From contig MWYX01000054.1 in assembly GCA_002050465.1 (NCBI GenBank), forward strand, positions 1 through 36,105: 36,105 nt of DNA, written 5' to 3'. A program made the position numbers and the translations under genes. Shown here piece after piece: positions 4,014 through 32,031 of the stretch. Source of the DNA: Chitinophagales bacterium 65-1 (GTDB taxonomy: Bacteria; Bacteroidota; Bacteroidia; Chitinophagales; Chitinophagaceae). Positions within the stretch are counted from its first letter, which is position 1. Every line of letters begins with the position of its first letter. The notes beneath the pieces were generated by a model that made no database searches, was not told the DNA's origin, and worked only from the letters and a program-made list of their open reading frames with translations.

Positions 4014-5525
4014 ATGTCCCAGATACGAAAACAAAGTATCGTTTCTACAATTTTTGTTTACCTGGGGTTTGCCATCGGCTTTCTTAACACCTATTTATTT
4101 ACCAGGATAGGTGCACCGTTTTTACCTTCTGAATATGGTCTTACTCAAATTTTTATCGCAGTAGGTAACCTCATGTTCGCTTTTTCCAATATGGGTATGA
4201 CGGCTGTTATGTATAAATTTTATCCGTATTATAAAGATAATCTTCAAAAAAAGAAAAATGACCTGCTTACATGGGCTTTGATAATGTGTATAATTGGTTT
4301 TATTCTGGTGATGATCTTCGGATTTATTTTTAAAGATCTTGTAATTAGGAAATTCAGTGCAAACTCTCCGGAATTTGTACAATATTATTTTTGGATTTTT
4401 CCATTTGGTTTTTCAATACTCTTATTTTCCATATTTGAAGTATATGCCTGGAATTTAAAAAAATCTATCGTTACAACTTTTTGTAGGGAAATTTTATTCC
4501 GTGTACTCACAACAATTCTGATCTTTATTTTATCGTTCGGGATCATTGATTCATTTGATACATTTATAAAACTATATGCATTTACCTATGGCATTGTTGC
4601 CATTGCCTTACTTATTTATTTATTATCCAGGGGACAATTAAAAATCAGCTTTACCATAAGCCGTGTTACAAAAAAATTTTATAAAAAGATACTGTCGTTT
4701 GCAACCCTTATTTATTTTGGCGGGCTTGTTTATATGATAGCGCAGTTTATTGAAACGCTCGTAATCATGTCAGTAATTGGAACCGGAGCAGCTGGTATTT
4801 TTGCATTAGCCAGTGTGATATCGGGATTAGTACAGGCACCACAAAGAGGCGCTATAGCAGCAGCTTTACCTGTTTTATCCAAAGCATGGAAAGATAAGGA
4901 TCATACCAAAATAAATTTAATTTATCAACGGTCAGGCATCAACCTTTTAATTGCTTCTTTAGGTGTATTTCTTATAGTATGGCTTAGTTATGAAGATGCG
5001 GTAAATGTGTTTGGCTTAAAACCAGCCTATCTTCAATCTGAATGGGTATTCTTTTTTATTGGTCTTGCTAAAATTGTAGATTTGGGCACCGGTGTAAATG
5101 CACAAATAATTGGTACCTCTATACATTGGAGGTTTGAATTTTTTTCAGGAATAATTTTACTTTCACTGGCGTTACCATTAAATTATTTCTTAGTAAAAGA
5201 ATTTGGGATTATCGGTGCAGCATATGCACACCTTATTTCGTTTAGTGCTTATAATGCTATTAGAATAATCTTTTTGAAGAGAAAATTTAATATGCAGCCT
5301 TTTAGTACTAAAACTGCCTATGCCATTGTATTGGCTTTTGTAGCATATACTATTTGCTATTACTCATTCATAAATCTTTATGGATTAGCAGGAATAGTTG
5401 TAAAAAGTCTGGCTTTTTTAGTTCTTTATGGAGGTAGTGTAATTTATTTTAAATTATCGCCTGATGTATTGCCAGTATGGGAAATAATACAAACTAAAGC
5501 AGGAATTAGAAAAAAGAACTTCTGA
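4014..5525 (+). CDS. Polysaccharide flippase-like membrane protein (MOP/Wzx superfamily)
   Basis: A 503-residue, very hydrophobic protein with about 12-14 membrane helices and the N-terminal pattern of lipid-linked oligosaccharide flippases (IRKQSIVSTIFVYLGFAIGFLNTYLFTR, then PSEYGLTQIFIAVGNLMFAFSNMGM). The repeat-like mid segment GTGAAGIFALASVISGLVQAPQRG resembles the start of the second six-helix half. Such proteins move undecaprenyl-linked sugars across the inner membrane for surface polysaccharide assembly. No glycosyltransferase or polymerase genes flank it, so the polymer it serves cannot be inferred, and it is not part of a visible polysaccharide locus. The stop codon lies inside the left arm of an inverted repeat. 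A different lipid substrate is possible. Confidence 0.85.
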   Translation: MSQIRKQSIVSTIFVYLGFAIGFLNTYLFTRIGAPFLPSEYGLTQIFIAVGNLMFAFSNMGMTAVMYKFYPYYKDNLQKKKNDLLTWALIMCIIGFILVMIFGFIFKDLVIRKFSANSPEFVQYYFWIFPFGFSILLFSIFEVYAWNLKKSIVTTFCREILFRVLTTILIFILSFGIIDSFDTFIKLYAFTYGIVAIALLIYLLSRGQLKISFTISRVTKKFYKKILSFATLIYFGGLVYMIAQFIETLVIMSVIGTGAAGIFALASVISGLVQAPQRGAIAAALPVLSKAWKDKDHTKINLIYQRSGINLLIASLGVFLIVWLSYEDAVNVFGLKPAYLQSEWVFFFIGLAKIVDLGTGVNAQIIGTSIHWRFEFFSGIILLSLALPLNYFLVKEFGIIGAAYAHLISFSAYNAIRIIFLKRKFNMQPFSTKTAYAIVLAFVAYTICYYSFINLYGLAGIVVKSLAFLVLYGGSVIYFKLSPDVLPVWEIIQTKAGIRKKNF

Positions 5526-6521: not shown

Positions 6522-9500
6522 ATGAAGTTCTCCCATCTGCATGTTCATACACAATTCTCTTTGCTGGATGGTGCCGCATCAATAAAAAACTTATACAGTA
6601 AAGCAATTGCAGATGGAATGCCCGCAGTAGCAATTTCTGATCATGGGAATATGTTTGGTGTATTTGAATTTGTAAAGCAGGCATATAACCATAAAAATGA
6701 AGATGGCTCTTTAAAAGTAAAACCCATTGTAGGCTGCGAATTTTACATTACAGAGAACAGACATAAAAAACAATTCAGTAAAGAAGATAAAGATCCGCGC
6801 CATCACCAGATACTGCTGGCAAAAAACGAAACAGGTTATAAAAATTTAGTTAAGCTAACCTCTGCAGGATACATAGAAGGTATGTATTCAAAATATCCAA
6901 GGATTGACAAAGAATTAATTCATAAACATCATGAAGGGTTAATTGCCACCACCTGTTGTTTGGGTGCATTGGTACCGCAAACAATTTTAAAAAAAGGAGA
7001 AGAAGAAGCAGAGAATGAATTTAAATGGTGGCTTAATATTTTTCAAAAAGATTATTATGTGGAACTGCAAAGGCATGGCATACCTGATCAGGATAAAGTG
7101 AACCTGGTATTATTGAAATTTGCAAAACAATATGGAGTAAAAGTTATTGCCAGCAATGATTCACATTATGTAGATGAAAAAGATTTTAATGCTCATGATA
7201 TTTTACTTTGTATTAACACCGGGGAAAAGCAATCTACACCTGCATTGAGAGAATTTACAGATGATGACGTATCAATAAAGAATAAACGTTTTGCATTTCC
7301 TAACAATCAGTTCTATTTTAAGAACACGGCAGAAATGCAGTCAGTGTTTGATGATATTGGCGAAGCGTTGGATAATACAAATGAAATAGTTGATAAGATT
7401 GATGTGCTTGATCTGAAGAGAGATATTTTATTACCACACTTTACTGTGCCAAAAGAATTTAACTCGCAGGATGAATACCTGGAGCATCTTACATGGACCG
7501 GAGCAAAGGAACGATATAAAGAGCTGACCCCTGAAATTGAAGAGCGTTTGAACTTTGAATTGTTTACTATTAAAACAATGGGTTTTGCCGGTTACTTTTT
7601 AATTGTTAGTGATTTTATTATAGCCGGAAAAAAAATGGGTGTATTTGTTGGCCCCGGCCGTGGCTCGGCTGCAGGTTCTGTGGTTGCCTATTGTATAGGC
7701 ATTACCAATATTGATCCTATAAAATATAATCTCCTTTTCGAAAGGTTTTTAAATCCTGACCGTAAATCAATGCCGGATATTGATACGGATTTTGATGATG
7801 AGGGGCGACAGAAAGTGTTAAATTATGTTGTAGAAAAATATGGAAAGAACCAGGTAGCCCAGATTATTACTTATGGCACCATGGCCGCAAAAATGAGTAT
7901 TAAAGATGTTGCCCGTGTAATGGATCTTCCGTTACCGGAGAGTAATGCGTTGGCAAAGCTTGTACCTGACCGCCCCGGTACATCTTTGCGAAGGGTGTTG
8001 CAGGCACCCCTTACAGGAGAAAAGTCTTTGCAGGAGGAAGGTGTAGGAAGTGATGATCTTGAAAATATAAAAAAGCTCAGGGAGATATATAAAGGAAATG
8101 ATATGCAGGCGAAAGTGTTGCATGAAGCTGAAATTTTAGAGGGTTCTGTTCGGAATACAGGTATACATGCATCGGCCATTATTATTGCACCGAAAGATCT
8201 TACGGAATTAATCCCTGTTGCCTGTTCAAAAGACTCTGATTTATGGCTTACCCAAATTGATGGAAATAATATTGAGTCAGCTGGTGTTTTAAAAATGGAT
8301 TTTTTGGGTTTAAGAACCTTGAGCATTTTGAAAACAGCTTTACATCTTATCAAACAAAATCATGGAGTAGTTATTGATCTGGATACACTTTCATTAGATG
8401 ATGAACCAACCTATAAGCTTTACCAGCGTGCTGATACCAATGGAACTTTCCAGTTTGAAAGTGTGGGAATGCAAAAACACTTGAGGGAGCTTAAGCCAGA
8501 TACCTTTAACGATCTTATTGCAATGAATGCCTTGTTTCGTCCGGGGCCAATGTTATATATCCCAAGTTATATTGAACGCAAGCATGGAAGGGAGCCGATA
8601 AATTATGATCTCCCTGAAATGGAGGAGATATTGAAAGATACCTATGGCATCACGGTTTACCAGGAGCAGGTGATGTTGCTTTCTCAAATGCTTGCCAACT
8701 TTAGCAAAGGCGATGCAGATGTTTTGCGTAAGGCAATGGGTAAAAAACAACGTTCTGTTCTTGCACAGATGAAAGAGCAGTTCATTAAAGGTGGAACTGC
8801 GAATGGCCACTCTGCAGAAAAGTTAGAAAAAATTTGGCATGACTGGGAAGCATTTGCACAGTACGCATTTAATAAATCCCACTCTACCTGTTATGCATTG
8901 GTTGCTTATCAAACTGCTTATTTAAAAGCGCATTATCCCAGTGAATATATGGCTGCAGTGTTAAACCATTCAGGCAGTATTGAAAAGATCACTTTCTTTA
9001 TGGAAGAATGCAAGCGCATGGGTTTGAAAGTACTGGGGCCGGATATTAATGAATCACAAAAAGGTTTTGCTGTAAATAAAAAAGGAGAGATACGATTCGG
9101 ATTTAGTGGGATGAAAGGTGTGGGCGAAGCTGCAATAGAAGGTATTATTGAAGAAAGAGATAAACGTGGACACTTCTCATCCATTTATGATCTCATTAAA
9201 AGAGTAAATCAAAGAACAGTAAATAAAAAATCATTGGAAAGTCTTGCCTACGCAGGTGCTTTTGATTGTTTTAATAATATTCATCGGGCACAATATTTTT
9301 ATATAGCTCCCGGTGATAATGCAAATGGGCTGGAAAAAATAATCCGGTTCGGAAATCAATACCAGGCACAATTGAGCAGCAGTTCAAATACTTTGTTTGG
9401 TGATCTGCAAATGGAGGAAGTTAATCCGCCAAAATTGTATGAATGCGAGCAATGGCCCTTAATAAAATTATTGGATCATGAAAAAGATGTTATTGGCATA

Positions 9501-10124
9501 TACATCAGCGGGCATCCGCTGGATAATTTTAAATTCGAAATAAAATATTACGGTCTCACTGCTATTGCAGAATTTAATGAATTTAAAGAAGCGGTACACC
9601 TGCACCCAAATCCCGGAAGAAATTTTAGAATGGCGGGACTGGTTGCCGAAGCCCAACATCGCATATCAAAAAACGGAAATAAATATGGCGTGTTTCACAT
9701 TGAAGATTATACAGCTAAAATGGAACTTACTTTATGGAGCGATGATTATGTAAAATTCAGTAACTATTTAGAAGCAGGAAGGGTGATTTTTATTACAGGT
9801 TGTTTCAGGCAACGGTATAATAAAGCAGAATTTGAATTTAAAGTAAACAGCATTTGTTTACTTGAAAGCATGATGAAAAGCTGTACAAAGAAACTCCAGA
9901 TAGAAACTCATCCGAAATTTATTGATGGAAATATCATTGACTTTGTAGAAAAAAATGTAAAAAAATTTCCCGGAAGATCAAGCCTGAAGTTTTGTCTATC
10001 AGAACCCGCATCAAAGCTTAAAGTAGGAATGTATTCTTTGGAGAATGGATTTGAAATGAATGACGAAATGGCTAAGTTCCTGCAACAAAAGCCAGAATTA
10101 GAAGTACAGGTGGAATTAACATGA
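6522..10124 (+). CDS. dnaE: DNA polymerase III alpha subunit (replicative polymerase)
   Basis: 1200 residues, the usual size for DnaE. The order is: PHP domain with HLHVHT (residues 5-10) and SDHGN (39-43); palm with VGPGRGSAAGS (about 375-385) and catalytic PDIDTDF with Asp419 and Asp421; third catalytic Asp593 in MDFLGLRTL; fingers with YQEQVMLLSQMLANFS and KAMGKK; tandem HhH segment around GFSGMKGVGEAAIEGI; and a C-terminal OB fold (MAGLVAEAQHRISKNGNKYGVF). It polymerises both strands at the replication fork in the cytoplasm. The PHP His residues are kept, so proofreading or pyrophosphatase activity in this domain is possible. trxA follows after 115 bases with its own candidate promoter. 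No frameshift is seen. Confidence 0.97.
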   Translation: MKFSHLHVHTQFSLLDGAASIKNLYSKAIADGMPAVAISDHGNMFGVFEFVKQAYNHKNEDGSLKVKPIVGCEFYITENRHKKQFSKEDKDPRHHQILLAKNETGYKNLVKLTSAGYIEGMYSKYPRIDKELIHKHHEGLIATTCCLGALVPQTILKKGEEEAENEFKWWLNIFQKDYYVELQRHGIPDQDKVNLVLLKFAKQYGVKVIASNDSHYVDEKDFNAHDILLCINTGEKQSTPALREFTDDDVSIKNKRFAFPNNQFYFKNTAEMQSVFDDIGEALDNTNEIVDKIDVLDLKRDILLPHFTVPKEFNSQDEYLEHLTWTGAKERYKELTPEIEERLNFELFTIKTMGFAGYFLIVSDFIIAGKKMGVFVGPGRGSAAGSVVAYCIGITNIDPIKYNLLFERFLNPDRKSMPDIDTDFDDEGRQKVLNYVVEKYGKNQVAQIITYGTMAAKMSIKDVARVMDLPLPESNALAKLVPDRPGTSLRRVLQAPLTGEKSLQEEGVGSDDLENIKKLREIYKGNDMQAKVLHEAEILEGSVRNTGIHASAIIIAPKDLTELIPVACSKDSDLWLTQIDGNNIESAGVLKMDFLGLRTLSILKTALHLIKQNHGVVIDLDTLSLDDEPTYKLYQRADTNGTFQFESVGMQKHLRELKPDTFNDLIAMNALFRPGPMLYIPSYIERKHGREPINYDLPEMEEILKDTYGITVYQEQVMLLSQMLANFSKGDADVLRKAMGKKQRSVLAQMKEQFIKGGTANGHSAEKLEKIWHDWEAFAQYAFNKSHSTCYALVAYQTAYLKAHYPSEYMAAVLNHSGSIEKITFFMEECKRMGLKVLGPDINESQKGFAVNKKGEIRFGFSGMKGVGEAAIEGIIEERDKRGHFSSIYDLIKRVNQRTVNKKSLESLAYAGAFDCFNNIHRAQYFYIAPGDNANGLEKIIRFGNQYQAQLSSSSNTLFGDLQMEEVNPPKLYECEQWPLIKLLDHEKDVIGIYISGHPLDNFKFEIKYYGLTAIAEFNEFKEAVHLHPNPGRNFRMAGLVAEAQHRISKNGNKYGVFHIEDYTAKMELTLWSDDYVKFSNYLEAGRVIFITGCFRQRYNKAEFEFKVNSICLLESMMKSCTKKLQIETHPKFIDGNIIDFVEKNVKKFPGRSSLKFCLSEPASKLKVGMYSLENGFEMNDEMAKFLQQKPELEVQVELT

Positions 10125-10163
10125 TGTGTATATGTCAAAATAACTTTTTTTAAATATTGGATG

Positions 10164-10171
10164 TAATTTTG
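10164..10171 (+). promoter_or_regulatory. Putative -7 box of the trxA promoter
   Basis: TAATTTTG is an exact TAnnTTTG match 68 bases before the trxA ATG. The -33 region is only a T-run (around 10143-10151), so the match is partial. It suggests that trxA can be transcribed independently of dnaE. Confidence 0.42.
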
Positions 10172-10239
10172 CAGACTAATGAACAAGTTTACGTTCCAGT
10201 AAACTATTAAACAATTAAACCTTTAAACAATTTTAAGAT

Positions 10240-10557
10240 ATGGCACACGAATTCACAGATGCAAACTTTAAAGAGGAAGTTTTAGATTCAGAGAAATTAT
10301 CAGTTATTGATTTTTGGGCAGAATGGTGTGGGCCCTGCCGTGCAATAGGACCCGTAATTGAAGAACTTGCAAAAGATTATGATGGGAAAGTGAATGTTGG
10401 TAAGGTAAATGTTGATTCTAACCCACAAATAAGTATGAACTATGGAATTACTTCTATACCAGCCATACTCTTTGTAAAAGGCGGAAAAGTAGTTGATAAA
10501 TTAGTAGGCGCTCAACCAAAAGCTAATTTTGTAAAAAAGATTGAAGCATTGAAATAG
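10240..10557 (+). CDS. trxA: Thioredoxin
   Basis: 105 residues with no signal peptide, hence cytoplasmic. The active site WCGPC is at residues 29-33, preceded by the buried Asp24 in VIDFWAEW, and the cis-proline loop reads TSIPAIL (about 72-78). Gly-rich GGKVVDKLVG and the final helix complete the fold, so every thioredoxin hallmark is present. It reduces protein disulfides with electrons from thioredoxin reductase and supplies ribonucleotide reductase. The next gene starts 11 bases after its stop and may share its transcript. Confidence 0.96.
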   Translation: MAHEFTDANFKEEVLDSEKLSVIDFWAEWCGPCRAIGPVIEELAKDYDGKVNVGKVNVDSNPQISMNYGITSIPAILFVKGGKVVDKLVGAQPKANFVKKIEALK

Positions 10558-10568
10558 TTAAAGCCGAT

Positions 10569-10931
10569 ATGAAATTTTTATTTTCGGTAATTGCATTTAT
10601 ATTATTCCTATCTCCGGTTTTCTCTCAAAAGAAAAGTGATAGTGATTGGTTTGTAAAAATGAAGAGGGAATTGCATTTAACAAAAAATCAGGAGACACAG
10701 ATATTAAAAATAGATAAAGCAGCCCAGGCTAAAATCAAAGCCCTTAATAAAAAGCAATCACCTAAATCCATTGCTAAAAAAACCGAAGCAATAAAGGCTG
10801 ACAGAAAAAATAAGATCATGAGTCTGCTAACGCCTACCCAACAGGAAAGGTGGCAAATGATCTTGGATAATACTCCAAGACGTGGTGTAACTGATATGCC
10901 TAATGAAAGAACCACAAAAAGATCAAATTGA
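10569..10931 (+). CDS. Small exported LTxxQ-motif protein (Spy/CpxP-like)
   Basis: 120 residues. A signal peptide (MKFLFSVIAFILFLSPVFSQ) precedes a lysine-rich helical mature protein. Two LTxxQ motifs are visible, LTKNQ at 37-41 and LTPTQ at 87-91, spaced as in the periplasmic Spy/CpxP family, whose members chaperone unfolded proteins or sense envelope stress. The mature part is strongly basic (many KK pairs) and ends in an unstructured NERTTKRSN tail. It follows trxA by 11 bases, which fits co-transcription. The family assignment rests on the two motifs and helical character only, so the chaperone role is an inference. Confidence 0.65.
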   Translation: MKFLFSVIAFILFLSPVFSQKKSDSDWFVKMKRELHLTKNQETQILKIDKAAQAKIKALNKKQSPKSIAKKTEAIKADRKNKIMSLLTPTQQERWQMILDNTPRRGVTDMPNERTTKRSN

Positions 10932-11017
10932 GTATTGACCATCGTACCAATATTCTCTAAAAATTAATTGGTATTATCAGTGCTTGATCCCATAATCAGG
11001 CTCTATCAAAATATTTT

Positions 11018-12298
11018 TTAATCAACCGGTAATACAGGTTCAGGATGCGTATTTCTAATGGCACCTGGATCATGCTTATGCTTAAAAAATACCATAAAAA
11101 GAATGGCGATTATAAATGCATACATTGCAAAGGCTAACCAGATGCCATGCCAGTCTTTATCTCCATTTGGTAAAAGGTAATATTTATCAATCATGTAACC
11201 ACTTAGCTTACTGCCGAGATAGGCTCCTACCCCATTTGTCATCATCATAAATAATCCCTGTGCGCTTGACCTTATCTGGGGGCTGGTATTGGTTTCTACA
11301 AATAACGACCCTGATATATTAAAGAAATCAAATGCCATTCCATATACAATACAGGAAAGGATTATCATCCACAGCCCTTCTTCCGGGTTACCGTATGAAA
11401 ACAAACCAAAGCGCAACACCCATGCTAACATTGAAAACAGCATAACTTTTTTGATGCCAAATCTTTTAAGGAAAAAGGGAATGGTTAGGATAAAGAGCGT
11501 TTCAGAAATTTGTGAAATGGACATGATGATGGTAGAATACTTCACCACAAAAGAATCAGGTCCGTAATCTGGATCTTTTTTAAAATCGTCGAGAAAAGTA
11601 TCCCCATACATATTAGTTAGCTGCAATGCGGCGCCTAAAAACATTGAGAAGATAAAAAACAAAGCCATCTTATATTTGGAGAACAACCTGAAGGCATTTA
11701 ATCCTAATTGCTCAATTAAAGAGGCATTTTTTGAAATTGCTTTTTCCGGCGGGCATTTGGGCAGCGTAAAGGAATAGATCCCTAACACTATAGCCATAAC
11801 ACCTGCAATTATAAATTGATTGGAATTTGCCTTACTGCCCGAAAGATTGGTGATCCACATGGCAACTATAAAACCGATGGTTCCCCATACACGGATGGGA
11901 GGAAAATCTTTTATAACATCAAATTTATTATTCTTTAAAATTGTATAGGCGATGGAATTAGATAAAGAAATAGTAGGCATATAACAAATCATTGCCGCAA
12001 ATATTACATAATACAATGTATCAGCATCATTTACCTGCGGAACATAAAACAATATCAAACCATACAAAATGTGTAATATTCCGTAAAGCTTTTCAGCATT
12101 TAGCCATTTATCTGCAATTATACCTGCAATAGCAGGCATAAAAAGAGAAGAAAGTGCAAGCGTGGAAAATATAGCTCCGAATTGTACTCCGCTTCCTAAA
12201 TTATTTGTAAAAAAATAAGTAGCAATTGTTATTAACCAGGCACCCCAAACAAAAAATTGCAGGAAGCTCATTAGTGTAAGCCGGAATTTAATACTCAT
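11018..12298 (-). CDS. MFS transporter of the nucleoside:H+ symporter type (NupG/XapB-like)
   Basis: 426 residues with 12 predicted membrane helices. The N-terminus (MSIKFRLTLMSFLQFFVWGAWLITIATYF) and the segment IRVWGTIGFIVAMWITNL are typical of the nucleoside:proton symporter branch of the major facilitator superfamily, as are LQLTNMYGDTFL and SQISETLFILTIPFFLKRFGIKKVM in the second half. Proteins of this family import nucleosides using the proton gradient at the inner membrane. No nucleosidase or kinase gene is adjacent. A 16-base palindrome lies 43 bases upstream of the ATG and could be an operator. Substrate is inferred from family resemblance; other nucleoside-like ligands cannot be excluded. 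Confidence 0.85.
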   Translation of the reverse strand: MSIKFRLTLMSFLQFFVWGAWLITIATYFFTNNLGSGVQFGAIFSTLALSSLFMPAIAGIIADKWLNAEKLYGILHILYGLILFYVPQVNDADTLYYVIFAAMICYMPTISLSNSIAYTILKNNKFDVIKDFPPIRVWGTIGFIVAMWITNLSGSKANSNQFIIAGVMAIVLGIYSFTLPKCPPEKAISKNASLIEQLGLNAFRLFSKYKMALFFIFSMFLGAALQLTNMYGDTFLDDFKKDPDYGPDSFVVKYSTIIMSISQISETLFILTIPFFLKRFGIKKVMLFSMLAWVLRFGLFSYGNPEEGLWMIILSCIVYGMAFDFFNISGSLFVETNTSPQIRSSAQGLFMMMTNGVGAYLGSKLSGYMIDKYYLLPNGDKDWHGIWLAFAMYAFIIAILFMVFFKHKHDPGAIRNTHPEPVLPVD

Positions 12299-12341
12299 TT
12301 TAATCTGTTTTTAGTTTGAAATTTAATGAGAGCCAATATTG

Positions 12342-12357
12342 TAAACCTAGCGGTTTA
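12342..12357. promoter_or_regulatory. Palindrome TAAACC-N4-GGTTTA, possible operator
   Basis: A perfect 6+6 inverted repeat with a 4-base centre (TAGC) sits between the divergent nucleoside transporter and M43 protease genes, 43 bases before the transporter ATG. The size and symmetry suit a dimeric repressor site, but no regulator gene is nearby and no second copy was found, so this is tentative. Confidence 0.3.
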
Positions 12358-12512
12358 AAAATTCGTAAATAATAATACGGTTTTTTATTTTGAAAGATAT
12401 AGATTTAGTAATTCACTTTATCAGGCTAGTAAAATAAATCTTAATTTTAAAGGATAGTAAAATACCTCGTTATCTTAATTTACTTATACCGGAATTCCGA
12501 ATTAAAATATTA

Positions 12513-15500
12513 GTGTTGAAAAAAATTGTACTAACTCTTTGTTCGGTAATTCTTACCACAATAATTTTTTCTCAAACCGGCCACCCAGACGGGCAGGTAA
12601 AAAATAAAGAAGGTATCACCCGATGCGGCACTATGCTGAGGATAGAAAAATTTCTCCGGTCTGATGCGCAGGCAAGAATCGCATCGCAACAAATTTCACA
12701 GGTAACTCCATCCGGGCGTTCTGCAACTACTTATCGTACAAATGCAATTATAACAATCCCGGTTGTAGTACATATAGTTTTAAATAACCCTTATTTTGTT
12801 ACTGATGCAGATGTGGAATTTCAAATAGCCAAATTAAATTTAGATTTTTCAGGCTTTAACCCGGATAGTACTAATATACCCCCTGAATTTCAGGCTGTAC
12901 GAGGGCATAGCCAGATAAGATTTGCTTTGGCCCGAAGAACACCTTCCGGTACGATTACCAATGGTATTAACAGGGTACGCAGCAGCATCGGGTCAAATGC
13001 ATTTGAACTGGTTGATCCTATAAAACGATCTTCATTGGGCGGTGCCGATGCATGGGATCCTAATTCATATTTAAATTTTTGGGTTGGGAATGAAGCCTCA
13101 AAACAAGGAATACTAGGTTATGCACAATTTCCTACAGCAGGTAATATTGCAGATGATGGCGTTTTTATAAACGTTAGAAGCTGGGGAAATAATCCCTGTT
13201 ATACATTACCTAAATATAATTTAGGCAGAACTACGGTGCATGAAACAGGACATTACCTTGGCCTATTACATATTTGGGGCGATGATGTCTCCGCTTGTAC
13301 GGGAGATGATTTTAAAAGTTTAACTACAGTAGGATCATCATGCATTTTACCTCCATCACTTTTTAATCCTGAAGGGCAGGGCAATACTGTATCTGATGTT
13401 GGAGATACACCTAATCAGGCGTCAGAAACAACTGATTGCCCTGCCGGAATTAAAATCGATTCATGTTCTCCTGTTCCACCCGGAATAATGTACCAGGATT
13501 TTATGGATTATACCCAGGATGCCTGCTACAGCATGTTTACAAAAAAACAGGTAGAGCGAATGGAATGGATAGTTGATAACTGCAGGGCTGGATTAAAAAC
13601 ATCCGTTGCTGCTTTAAACCCACCGGGTACTGTTACAATTGATGCTTCGCCATTCCAAACAGTAAATCCCGGAGGCTTTGAAGTGGTTGGATGCACTTCG
13701 CTTTCTTATGAGTCTATCCTCTCCTGCCCGGGTAATTTTATACCAAAAGTAAGGATAAGAAATAATGGCTTAAACACTATCAATACAGTTACCGTTGGAA
13801 TGATAATAAATGGTGGAATACCAATTAATATAAATATTTCCCCGAATCTTCCTTTTGGATATACAACAGTTGTAAGTTTTCCATCTGTACTGGTAACCAC
13901 CGGAACGTATACCATTAAATTTTATACAGCAAACCCAAATGGTGTAAATCCTGATCAGGTACCTTCAAACGATACACTTATAACCACGCTGACTGTTGCA
14001 GCACCACTTCCAATTCCTGTAAGTGAAGGTTTTGAGGGCAGTACATTTCCTCCTCCGGGATGGACGATCTTCAATCCGAATGGAGATTATACATGGGTTA
14101 GGGTATCACCCGGACATAACAGTAACTTTTCGGCAACAATTGATAATTATAATAATGATGATTCAGGGCGAATTGATGAATTGAGAACGCCAAAAATTAT
14201 TTTTTCACCAACTGACTCAGCTATTGTTATTTCCTTTGATGTAGCTCATAAATATTATCCGGATCCGATAAATTATGATACATTAAGTGTCCTTATTTCC
14301 AGTGATTGTGGCGCTACCTTTACTACAGTATATAAAAAATGGGGCGCCGAACTTGCAACCGCCGATACTTCTACATTAGCTTATTTAACACCGGCAAATT
14401 CCGATTGGCGAACAGATAAAGTATCGATTTCCGGAAACCTGTTATCCTCCGGTAATATTATTGTTGCCTTTAGAAATACAAATCGTTTTGGTAATAACAT
14501 ATTTCTTGATAATATAAATATCGCTAAGTCTGGCCCCGGAGATTTGCAACTTATTTCAATAGAGCAGCCGGGTGCAATAATCTGTTCTCCATCTGTAACA
14601 CCAGTAGTAATAGTGAAAAATACGGGAAGTGAAACTATAGCAAGTGTTAATATATCTTATAGTATTGATAATGGTGCTCCTGTTATAACTACTTTAAATT
14701 CCTTAAACTTATCACCGGGCCAGCAATTGAGCGTAACATTAAATCCTCCATTTACTGTTACGCCCGGGATGCATACCATAAAAGTTTTTATCTCTGATGT
14801 TTTAACAACTATAAGTTCCAGGGATCAAAATCCCTCTAATGATACACTTACAAAAGTATTTACATTAGTGGGCAGGTTAAATATTCCGGTAACAGAAGGT
14901 TTTGAATCACCTGTATTTCCTCCCATCAACTGGGCTGTAGATAATCCTGATGGTTTAATTACATGGGAAAGAACTACCACGGCAGCCAAATCCGGAAGTG
15001 CTTCGATGGTGATAAGAAATTTTGATTACACTGTAACAAAAACCATTGATAAATTTGTTTCTCCCATAATAACAGGCATTTCGGCTTTTGACTCATTATT
15101 TATATCATTTGATCTGGCGTATGCCCTGGGAAACAATGGTGCAAATGGTAACATAGATACGTTGGAACTTCAGATTAGTAGAAATTGCGGACAGACATTC
15201 AGTACTGTTTGGAAAAAATGGGGCGCTGATCTGCGAACAACTACAGCAAATGGAAGATTTATTCCTGGCGGAAGAGATTGGAAAAATATCAAAGTTGATC
15301 TGGCACCCTTTATTAATACCCCAAGCTTCCAATTATATTTTGTAGCAAAAAGCAATAAGCAAAACAATCTTTATATAGATAATATAAATATTTTTGGAAT
15401 TACTTTACCCCAACGATTAAAAGACCAGGGTTATCTTATTTATCCAAATCCTTTTTTAAATTCTTTTGTAATTCAGCATCAATTTCCGCCCATTAATCTT

Positions 15501-29174: not shown

Positions 29175-30548
29175 ATGAAAAAGCCATTGCTCCTCTTATT
29201 GATAATTATCTTTTGTTGGGATTTAACTGCGCAGATAAAACCTTTTCGTTTTGCATTTCTTTCTGACACACATATTGGATCTCCTGATGGAAAAGCAGAG
29301 GAAGATCTGAGAAGAACAGTAAATGATATAAACAGCAGAAATGATATTGACTTTGTGGTAATAACAGGTGATATTACCGAACTGGGCACTGATGAAGAAT
29401 TACCAAGAGCAAAAAAGCTATTTGATTCTTTAAGAGTGAAATATTATATTATACCCGGCAATCACGATGTTGGCTGGAGTGAAAGTGGTGGCATGAGTTT
29501 TATTTCAACATTTGGCAGCGACAGGTTTATTTTTGATCATAATGGAATACGCTTTATCGGGTGCTCTTCAGGCCCATATGTTAGAATGAGCGATGGACAT
29601 ATTCCCCGTGATGCCATGACGTGGATGAAAAAAATTCTTGATACAACTTCAGTTACTATGCCTGTAATTTTTTTAAACCATTACCCGATGAATAATTCAA
29701 TGGATAACTGGTATGAAGTGATAGACCTGTTTAAAAAACGAAACACCATTTTATTCCTATGCGGGCATGGGCATACTAATAAAGTTTTTGATTTTGAGGA
29801 TATTCCCGGTGTAATGGGAAGATCGAACCTGCGGGCAAAACAAACTGAGGGCGGATATAATTTGGTTGATGTAACAATTGATTCAATTTTATTTACTGAA
29901 AGAAAGCCTGTTAGTGGTAACATGAAAAAGTGGGCAGGAATAAAAGTTGAACAGCACAATTATGATCTTACAAAAAAATTTATAAGACCCGACTATAGTA
30001 TTAATAAAAAATATCCGCAGGTAAAAGCAAAGTGGATGTTTAGTTCAGAAGCAAATGTTATTTCTACACCTGCTGTTATAAAAGACCTTGTTGTTTTTGG
30101 AAATCAACAGGGAACAGTTACTGCATTATCGTTAAAAAACGGAAACCGGAAGTGGACTTTTAAAACAGGAGGCTCAATTTATTCATCACCCGCTATTCAT
30201 CTAAATAAAATTGTTTTAGGAAGCACAGATGGCAATGTGTATTGTTTGAATGAGAATGGCAAACTACTTTGGAAGTTTAAAACAGGCGCTGCGGTATTAG
30301 GCTCACCAACCATTGCAAGTAGTGGAACAATATATCCTCCGGGCAAATATCAACCGGCATTTGAAAACAGTGTGCTTTACATCGGCGGAAGTGATCATTT
30401 TTTCAGAGCAATAGATTTAAACTCGGGGAAAGAGATATGGAACTTCGAGGGTTTAAATGGTCCTGTTGTTAGCACACCTGTTATTTACCGGGATGCAATC
30501 ATCTTTGGGGCATGGGATACTTACTTGCTCTTCAGGCCCATATGTTAG
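29175..30548 (+). CDS. Truncated metallophosphoesterase/PQQ-propeller protein (first fragment)
   Basis: 457 residues: 451 native, then LFRPIC out of frame and a TAG. A signal peptide (LLLLLIIIFCWDLTAQ) precedes a calcineurin-type metallophosphoesterase whose metal sites are complete: Asp31 and His33 (SDTHIG), Asp66 (TGDI), Asn96 and His97 (GNHD), His169 (NHYP), His198 and His200 (GHGH). A PQQ-like beta-propeller begins near residue 285; three blade motifs (NGNRKWTF, NGKLLWKF, SGKEIWNF) are present before the break. Removing one 964-bp repeat gives a 630-residue protein, so 179 residues are lost. The propeller is probably open and unstable, although the phosphatase part may fold. Phosphatase substrate unknown. 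Confidence 0.8.
   Translation: MKKPLLLLLIIIFCWDLTAQIKPFRFAFLSDTHIGSPDGKAEEDLRRTVNDINSRNDIDFVVITGDITELGTDEELPRAKKLFDSLRVKYYIIPGNHDVGWSESGGMSFISTFGSDRFIFDHNGIRFIGCSSGPYVRMSDGHIPRDAMTWMKKILDTTSVTMPVIFLNHYPMNNSMDNWYEVIDLFKKRNTILFLCGHGHTNKVFDFEDIPGVMGRSNLRAKQTEGGYNLVDVTIDSILFTERKPVSGNMKKWAGIKVEQHNYDLTKKFIRPDYSINKKYPQVKAKWMFSSEANVISTPAVIKDLVVFGNQQGTVTALSLKNGNRKWTFKTGGSIYSSPAIHLNKIVLGSTDGNVYCLNENGKLLWKFKTGAAVLGSPTIASSGTIYPPGKYQPAFENSVLYIGGSDHFFRAIDLNSGKEIWNFEGLNGPVVSTPVIYRDAIIFGAWDTYLLFRPIC
29562..30525. repeat. 964-bp direct tandem repeat, copy 1
   Basis: Copy 1 runs from codon 130 (TGC) to the middle of the propeller. By eye it matches 30526-31489 with one difference, T at 30095 against C at 31059, which is silent (Val). 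A 2-bp microhomology (TG) marks the junction. Since 964 is not a multiple of 3, the second pass shifts the frame. Confidence 0.93.
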
Positions 30549-32031
30549 AATGAGCGATGGACATATTCCCCGTGATGCCATGACGTGGATGAAAAAAATT
30601 CTTGATACAACTTCAGTTACTATGCCTGTAATTTTTTTAAACCATTACCCGATGAATAATTCAATGGATAACTGGTATGAAGTGATAGACCTGTTTAAAA
30701 AACGAAACACCATTTTATTCCTATGCGGGCATGGGCATACTAATAAAGTTTTTGATTTTGAGGATATTCCCGGTGTAATGGGAAGATCGAACCTGCGGGC
30801 AAAACAAACTGAGGGCGGATATAATTTGGTTGATGTAACAATTGATTCAATTTTATTTACTGAAAGAAAGCCTGTTAGTGGTAACATGAAAAAGTGGGCA
30901 GGAATAAAAGTTGAACAGCACAATTATGATCTTACAAAAAAATTTATAAGACCCGACTATAGTATTAATAAAAAATATCCGCAGGTAAAAGCAAAGTGGA
31001 TGTTTAGTTCAGAAGCAAATGTTATTTCTACACCTGCTGTTATAAAAGACCTTGTTGTCTTTGGAAATCAACAGGGAACAGTTACTGCATTATCGTTAAA
31101 AAACGGAAACCGGAAGTGGACTTTTAAAACAGGAGGCTCAATTTATTCATCACCCGCTATTCATCTAAATAAAATTGTTTTAGGAAGCACAGATGGCAAT
31201 GTGTATTGTTTGAATGAGAATGGCAAACTACTTTGGAAGTTTAAAACAGGCGCTGCGGTATTAGGCTCACCAACCATTGCAAGTAGTGGAACAATATATC
31301 CTCCGGGCAAATATCAACCGGCATTTGAAAACAGTGTGCTTTACATCGGCGGAAGTGATCATTTTTTCAGAGCAATAGATTTAAACTCGGGGAAAGAGAT
31401 ATGGAACTTCGAGGGTTTAAATGGTCCTGTTGTTAGCACACCTGTTATTTACCGGGATGCAATCATCTTTGGGGCATGGGATACTTACTTGTATTCTATT
31501 AACAGAGATAGTGGAAAACTAAACTGGAAGTGGAGTAATGGCTCTCCCATAAAAAATTATTCACCTGCTGCCTGTATCCCTGTTATTAAAGATGATGTTA
31601 TTTATGTTGTTGCACCCGATAGATATTTATCCGCAATAGATATACGTACAGGTAAAACATTGTGGCGTACCAATGAATCAACCGTTCGTGAATCAATTGG
31701 TATTTCCGATGATGGTAATTTTATCTATGGAAAAACAATGAACGATACACTAACAGTTTTTTTTACAAATAAAGACAAACCGCAGGTTGCATGGAAATTA
31801 AATGTTGGATACGGCTATGAGCACACCCCTTCCATGCTGATTGAACAGGATGGCAATGTATTTTTTGGCACAAAAAACGGAGTTGTATATGCAATTAATA
31901 CTTCAGACAAAAAAATTGAATGGGCTTATAAAATTGATAACTCTATGGTAAATACAGTTAATGTGATTGACAAAAAAAATATTATTGCTTCAACCATGGA
32001 TGGAAAAGTAGTGCTGTTACAAATACAATGA
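30457..32031 (+). CDS. N-terminally truncated metallophosphoesterase/PQQ-propeller protein (second fragment)
   Basis: The frame gives 524 residues, but the first 23 are read out of frame through the end of repeat copy 1; native sequence resumes at 30526 (original residue 130). A likelier start is the ATG at 30550, one base after the first fragment's TAG, giving 493 residues. It keeps NHYP and GHGH and the whole propeller of about seven blades (NGNRKWTF, NGKLLWKF, SGKEIWNF, SGKLNWKW, TGKTLWRT, DKKIEWAY) but lacks the signal peptide and the Asp31, His33, Asp66 and Asn96 ligands. It should therefore be neither exported nor active as a phosphoesterase. The downstream membrane gene starts 4 bases after its stop. 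Confidence 0.75.
   Translation: MVLLLAHLLFTGMQSSLGHGILTCSSGPYVRMSDGHIPRDAMTWMKKILDTTSVTMPVIFLNHYPMNNSMDNWYEVIDLFKKRNTILFLCGHGHTNKVFDFEDIPGVMGRSNLRAKQTEGGYNLVDVTIDSILFTERKPVSGNMKKWAGIKVEQHNYDLTKKFIRPDYSINKKYPQVKAKWMFSSEANVISTPAVIKDLVVFGNQQGTVTALSLKNGNRKWTFKTGGSIYSSPAIHLNKIVLGSTDGNVYCLNENGKLLWKFKTGAAVLGSPTIASSGTIYPPGKYQPAFENSVLYIGGSDHFFRAIDLNSGKEIWNFEGLNGPVVSTPVIYRDAIIFGAWDTYLYSINRDSGKLNWKWSNGSPIKNYSPAACIPVIKDDVIYVVAPDRYLSAIDIRTGKTLWRTNESTVRESIGISDDGNFIYGKTMNDTLTVFFTNKDKPQVAWKLNVGYGYEHTPSMLIEQDGNVFFGTKNGVVYAINTSDKKIEWAYKIDNSMVNTVNVIDKKNIIASTMDGKVVLLQIQ
30526..31489. repeat. 964-bp direct tandem repeat, copy 2
   Basis: Directly abuts copy 1. The left junction reads ACTTG-CTCTTC, where copy 1 end (ACTTG-TATTC) and copy 2 start (GGTG-CTCTTC) share TG. 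The match continues 2 bases, to 31491, into unique sequence. Confidence 0.93.

Follow-up and report, generated by a model that had tools for sequence, protein, structure and literature searches.

A tandem duplication that breaks an otherwise ordinary gene into two reading frames raises the question of whether the break exists in the living cell, as a reversible switch or as a fresh loss of function, or only in the assembled sequence. All three readings were offered for this locus in an earlier note, and assembly error alone is supported here, since four more duplications of this kind lie at unrelated places of the draft. The window, that is, the whole 36,105-nucleotide stretch of DNA analysed, is a complete contig (C11), one of 68 in a draft that totals 1,957,690 bases and has a completeness of 79.5% and a contamination of 2.27%; these values point to a draft that is probably of metagenomic origin. 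From what follows we conclude that the duplication is very probably a false one made in assembly and not a genetic switch. The features under discussion are these:

29562-30525, + strand: copy 1 of the 964-bp tandem duplication.
30526-31489, + strand: copy 2, which differs from copy 1 solely at 31059 (C, where 30095 is T).
30526-30527, also 29562-29563 and 31490-31491, strand not applicable: 2-bp microhomology TG at the junction.
29175-30548, + strand: frame 1, 457 aa, with the metallophosphoesterase domain at residues 24-201, followed by the first part of the propeller and a short tail outside the homologous frame.
30457-32031, + strand: frame 2, 524 aa, with the later phosphoesterase part and the propeller; its first residues lie outside the homologous frame.
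30315-30366, repeated at 31279-31330, + strand: stretch with an in-frame 16-codon insertion in the propeller.

The arrangement is as the earlier note had described it, with two near-perfect copies at a period of 964, which is not a multiple of 3, a gene split into frames of 457 and 524 codons, and a single silent difference (GTT in copy 1, GTC in copy 2, both Val); the 630-residue gene that it had proposed for a single copy agrees by arithmetic alone. The match runs to 966 bp at 99.9% identity (29562-30527 against 30526-31491), 2 bp beyond the period, because TG stands at all three borders. A near-exact repeat of this length is far outside chance expectation. The copies are adjacent, and each is flanked by different unique sequence.

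The claimed phosphoesterase is borne out by a match of the N-terminal part of the gene to Metallophos (PF00149, E 1.9e-16), joined to matches of the remainder to PQQ/BamB-like propeller models. These Pfam matches refer to the two frames of the window, and their assignment to one gene comes from the mapping of both frames to a single open frame in relatives. The sole basis for calling the product secreted is a hydrophobic N-terminus judged by eye. The 16-codon insertion is absent from six aligned homologues and from G015, the genome with the most similar gene within the genus, and a search of the draft for another copy of these 48 bp returned only the two in the window.

Comparable repeats occur elsewhere in the draft. 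Near-exact direct repeats were sought in 60 further stretches, which with the window make 61 stretches and 1,165,120 bp, about 60% of the draft, at a threshold of 300 bp and 97% identity that was applied to draft and relatives alike. Five head-to-tail duplications of 615-1298 bp were found, all at least 99.6% identical (99.6-99.9%), in genes that are unrelated to one another:

Contig C11 (the window): 964 bp, junction microhomology 2 bp, in the phosphoesterase/propeller gene.
Contig C14: 708 bp, junction microhomology 0 bp, in a fusion of an FtsW/RodA-like protein and a transpeptidase, 1597 aa in the draft, encoded at 8687-13480 of stretch L160.
Contig C7: 615 bp, junction microhomology 0 bp, in a PAPS reductase whose domain is found twice.
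Contig C24: 1298 bp, junction microhomology 1 bp, in an FGE-sulfatase-like protein (presumably GldK) and the end of its neighbour.
Contig C13: 838 bp, one extra base at the junction, in a 2-phosphosulfolactate phosphatase and the end of its neighbour.

Sixty control stretches from relatives (1,016,410 bp; 20 from G023, 20 from G008, G010 and G004, and the last 20 from nine further members of the genus) held no duplication that reached 300 bp and 97% identity, and the same was true of 560,889 bp around the phosphoesterase gene in 80 public loci. Overall, then, there are five duplications in 1,165,120 bp of draft versus none in 1,577,299 bp of relatives. By base share, the chance that all five would fall in the draft is 0.014, or 0.030 for four when the window is left out, since it was picked for its duplication; without the 80 gene-centred loci the corresponding figures are 0.043 and 0.077. 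The significance of the rate comparison is only moderate, and it is the likeness among the five cases that convinces. Below the threshold, relatives do carry repeats, among them a 198-bp pair of adjacent copies at 91% (L265), 2.8-kb copies overlapping each other, at 81% (L272), and several of 65-251 bp (L276), and weaker repeats occur in the draft too (L177, L233). One of these draft stretches lies on contig C31, where bases 1-134 recur 5 kb inside, at 5028-5160, with 98.5% identity, possibly another assembly flaw.

Homologue lengths were compared for the window's gene and the C14 fusion only. Counterparts of the fusion occupy single open frames of 1357 (G023), 1379 (G016) and 1377 (G007) codons, and homologues are shorter in G014 (1254) and G005 (1157) and in pieces in G009. 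The gene in L160 joins its FtsW/RodA-like protein to a penicillin-binding transpeptidase domain, and the matches in G023, G016 and G007 are likewise single frames. Two of the five periods are divisible by 3, as expected if the reading frame is irrelevant to where the copies arise.

The junctions and the differences between copies have common properties as well. The junctions look like random joins: at the composition of the window, 53% of such joins would share no base, 29% one and 12% two, so that about 94% fall within 0-2 bp. No recognisable recombination site was found at the copy ends in the window, where the 2-bp microhomology is the only feature. Near-absent microhomology alone does not rule out a real duplication. 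Across all five cases, 11 of 4,423 sites (0.25%) differ between the copies, with the extra base of C13 excluded, and seven of these differences are silent and four change an amino acid. The neutral silent share, computed on the C11 and C14 segments, is 0.21-0.28 depending on transition weighting; at a share of 0.25 the probability of seven or more silent differences in 11 is 0.008, and at 0.30 it is 0.022, in a test that takes the differences as independent, five of them coming from C24 alone. Given this silent excess, the differences resemble allelic variation between strains in working genes, unlike the decay that would follow a gene-breaking duplication. The window by itself contributes one difference, which is silent and carries little weight. 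The earlier note had taken its single difference to argue mildly against simple read duplication, a view that is reversed by these data, since a silent T/C change fits two strain variants and 7/11 silent differences compare with about 25% expected without selection. The T is found at the equivalent of 30095 in all four comparable homologues (L032, L033, L023 and L003) among the six tried, L004 having no DNA match and L005 ending before the site; the C of copy 2 is therefore probably the newer allele.

How an assembly might produce such a structure can be outlined. Strain variants living side by side would have contributed two pieces that overlap by 964 bp and differ at one silent site, and these would have been set end to end instead of being merged; by an alternative route, a loop in the assembly graph would have been walked twice, once per allele. 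The cell would then most likely have one intact, ordinary metallophosphoesterase/PQQ-propeller gene. We infer the joins, their route and a mixed-population source from the assembled sequence. One point against assembly error is that no junction carries an N (the sampled draft stretches have no N bases at all), though published false duplications often have gaps. The join would therefore have to be free of gaps, or a graph loop walked twice; we claim no exact subtype. The ends of contig C11 share no sequence with other contigs of their own genome among the candidates scored (40 of 49 for one comparison and 40 of 80 for the other).

Comparable errors have been described. Kelley and Salzberg (2010, PMC2864568) used mate pairs to detect false segmental duplications in vertebrates, among them "duplicated overlapping contigs", which resemble the window in having side-by-side, near-identical copies with their own unique flanks and allele-like changes, and in that merging yields one ordinary locus; here, unlike there, the haplotypes would be bacterial strains, the joins are gap-free, and the case is known from assembled sequence. 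Heterotype false duplications, as portrayed by Ko et al. (2022, PMC9516828), similarly place the two alleles of a locus next to each other in a single sequence and are marked by half depth, discordant pairs, one-copy k-mers and a gap between the copies; this gap, which they list as a primary characteristic, is absent here. Among local errors in metagenome-assembled genomes, Chen et al. (2020, PMC7111523) include scaffold joins where overlapping ends were left as duplicate sequence, which, like the window's repeat on the assembly reading, was due for merging, with Ns at their join and none here. Spontaneous tandem duplications in Salmonella (PMC3411829) are likewise direct duplications with a new junction, and the verified ones in that account had at least 11 bp of junction microhomology, unlike the 0-2 bp at four of our junctions and the extra base at the fifth. 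As a comparison this carries little weight, since that study confined its tests to candidates whose microhomology was longer and scored a rearrangement as a duplication only above 5 kb, criteria that short blunt duplications would escape.

The earlier note had also proposed a comparison with related genomes, and at the gene itself the arrangement was not found there. A scan of public genomes identified as closest relatives, where a family name stands in the title, Chitinophagaceae, and matches at E <= 0.001 occurred in 20 of 59 near genomes (the genome itself included), many of them to the propeller only. The best 80 of 429 public relatives and seven loci from the near genomes give 87 homologous loci, and in 87 of 87 the best matches of both gene halves lie in one and the same open frame, with the provisos that the gene in L005 is incomplete, being interrupted by a contig break (the other half, L023, is on another contig and outside the count), that L099 is cut by a contig end and L057 ends with its contig, and that L004 and L041, both of 87,315 bases, are seemingly one contig. 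No duplicate was found inside the gene in these loci; the repeats listed, at most three per locus, are all outside it, and shorter repeats do exist in the public loci, for instance the 70-bp tandem repeat (97%) of L068. The most similar gene within the genus, in G015, is itself split over two contigs, C296 (end of L023) and C189 (end of L005), which have exactly 99 bases in common, the mark of a fork in a k-mer graph; no third match was found in a search for a third contig at this fork (40 of 57 candidates scored).

A real and recent tandem duplication that inactivated the gene in this strain is unlikely, and it is the best surviving alternative. It would account for a continuous sequence free of N, and for the newer base sitting in copy 2 while T is the state of the four comparable homologues. 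In its favour, too, the gene looks dispensable in the genus: among 19 other members, which include incomplete drafts, matches over most of the gene or to both of its halves came from G005, G014 and G015 only. In G008 (1440-1626 of L013), roughly 20 codons from the start of the gene run directly into roughly 40 from its end, a remnant of an internal deletion beside the same dipeptidase gene; in that genome the match to the dipeptidase neighbour (L115) spans one in-frame TAA. What a single inactivation leaves unexplained are the four other such duplications, which lie in unrelated genes, and the excess of silent differences, and on these grounds we rejected it as the main reading.

The recurrence within the draft could itself be biological. 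It is very unlikely, in our estimation, that the duplications are real in the sense that the lineage spontaneously makes microhomology-free tandem duplications of 0.6-1.3 kb across its genome and that some of these disrupt genes in a reversible way. A burst of real, short tandem duplications throughout the lineage, arising for example from a replication or recombination defect, is very unlikely indeed; five cases in 60% of the draft with none in the sampled relatives would be its natural outcome, but the burst would need an internal strike on the membrane core of the FtsW/transpeptidase fusion, where the C14 duplication lies, and copies that diverged mostly at silent positions although several of them break their gene. 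A reversible ON/OFF switch, in which RecA-mediated gain and loss of a 964-bp copy would phase the gene, is extremely unlikely and was rejected as the main reading. In its favour, an exact direct repeat of this length is expected to be unstable by homologous recombination, and the period would give one and two copies different reading states. Against it, no duplicate recurs within the gene in the 87 loci, the copy ends bear no marks of recombination sites, and similar duplications strike unrelated genes, in two cases with a period that leaves the frame intact. Phase-variable copy number of tandem repeats is reported in M. tuberculosis (PMC12817950).

The preferred reading, a false duplication made in assembly, was reached from sampled stretches covering 60% of the draft of one genome of the species, and from assembled sequence; recurrence in the same assembly and not in relatives is our own criterion and does not come from the papers cited. 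The approach provides a quick check, which is to seek further tandem duplications in the same draft before a fresh one is given a biological interpretation. Real duplications would suggest that an unusual process creates them, and the evidence leans against this. The assembly reading would remove what is likely a false call of a switch or a pseudogene.
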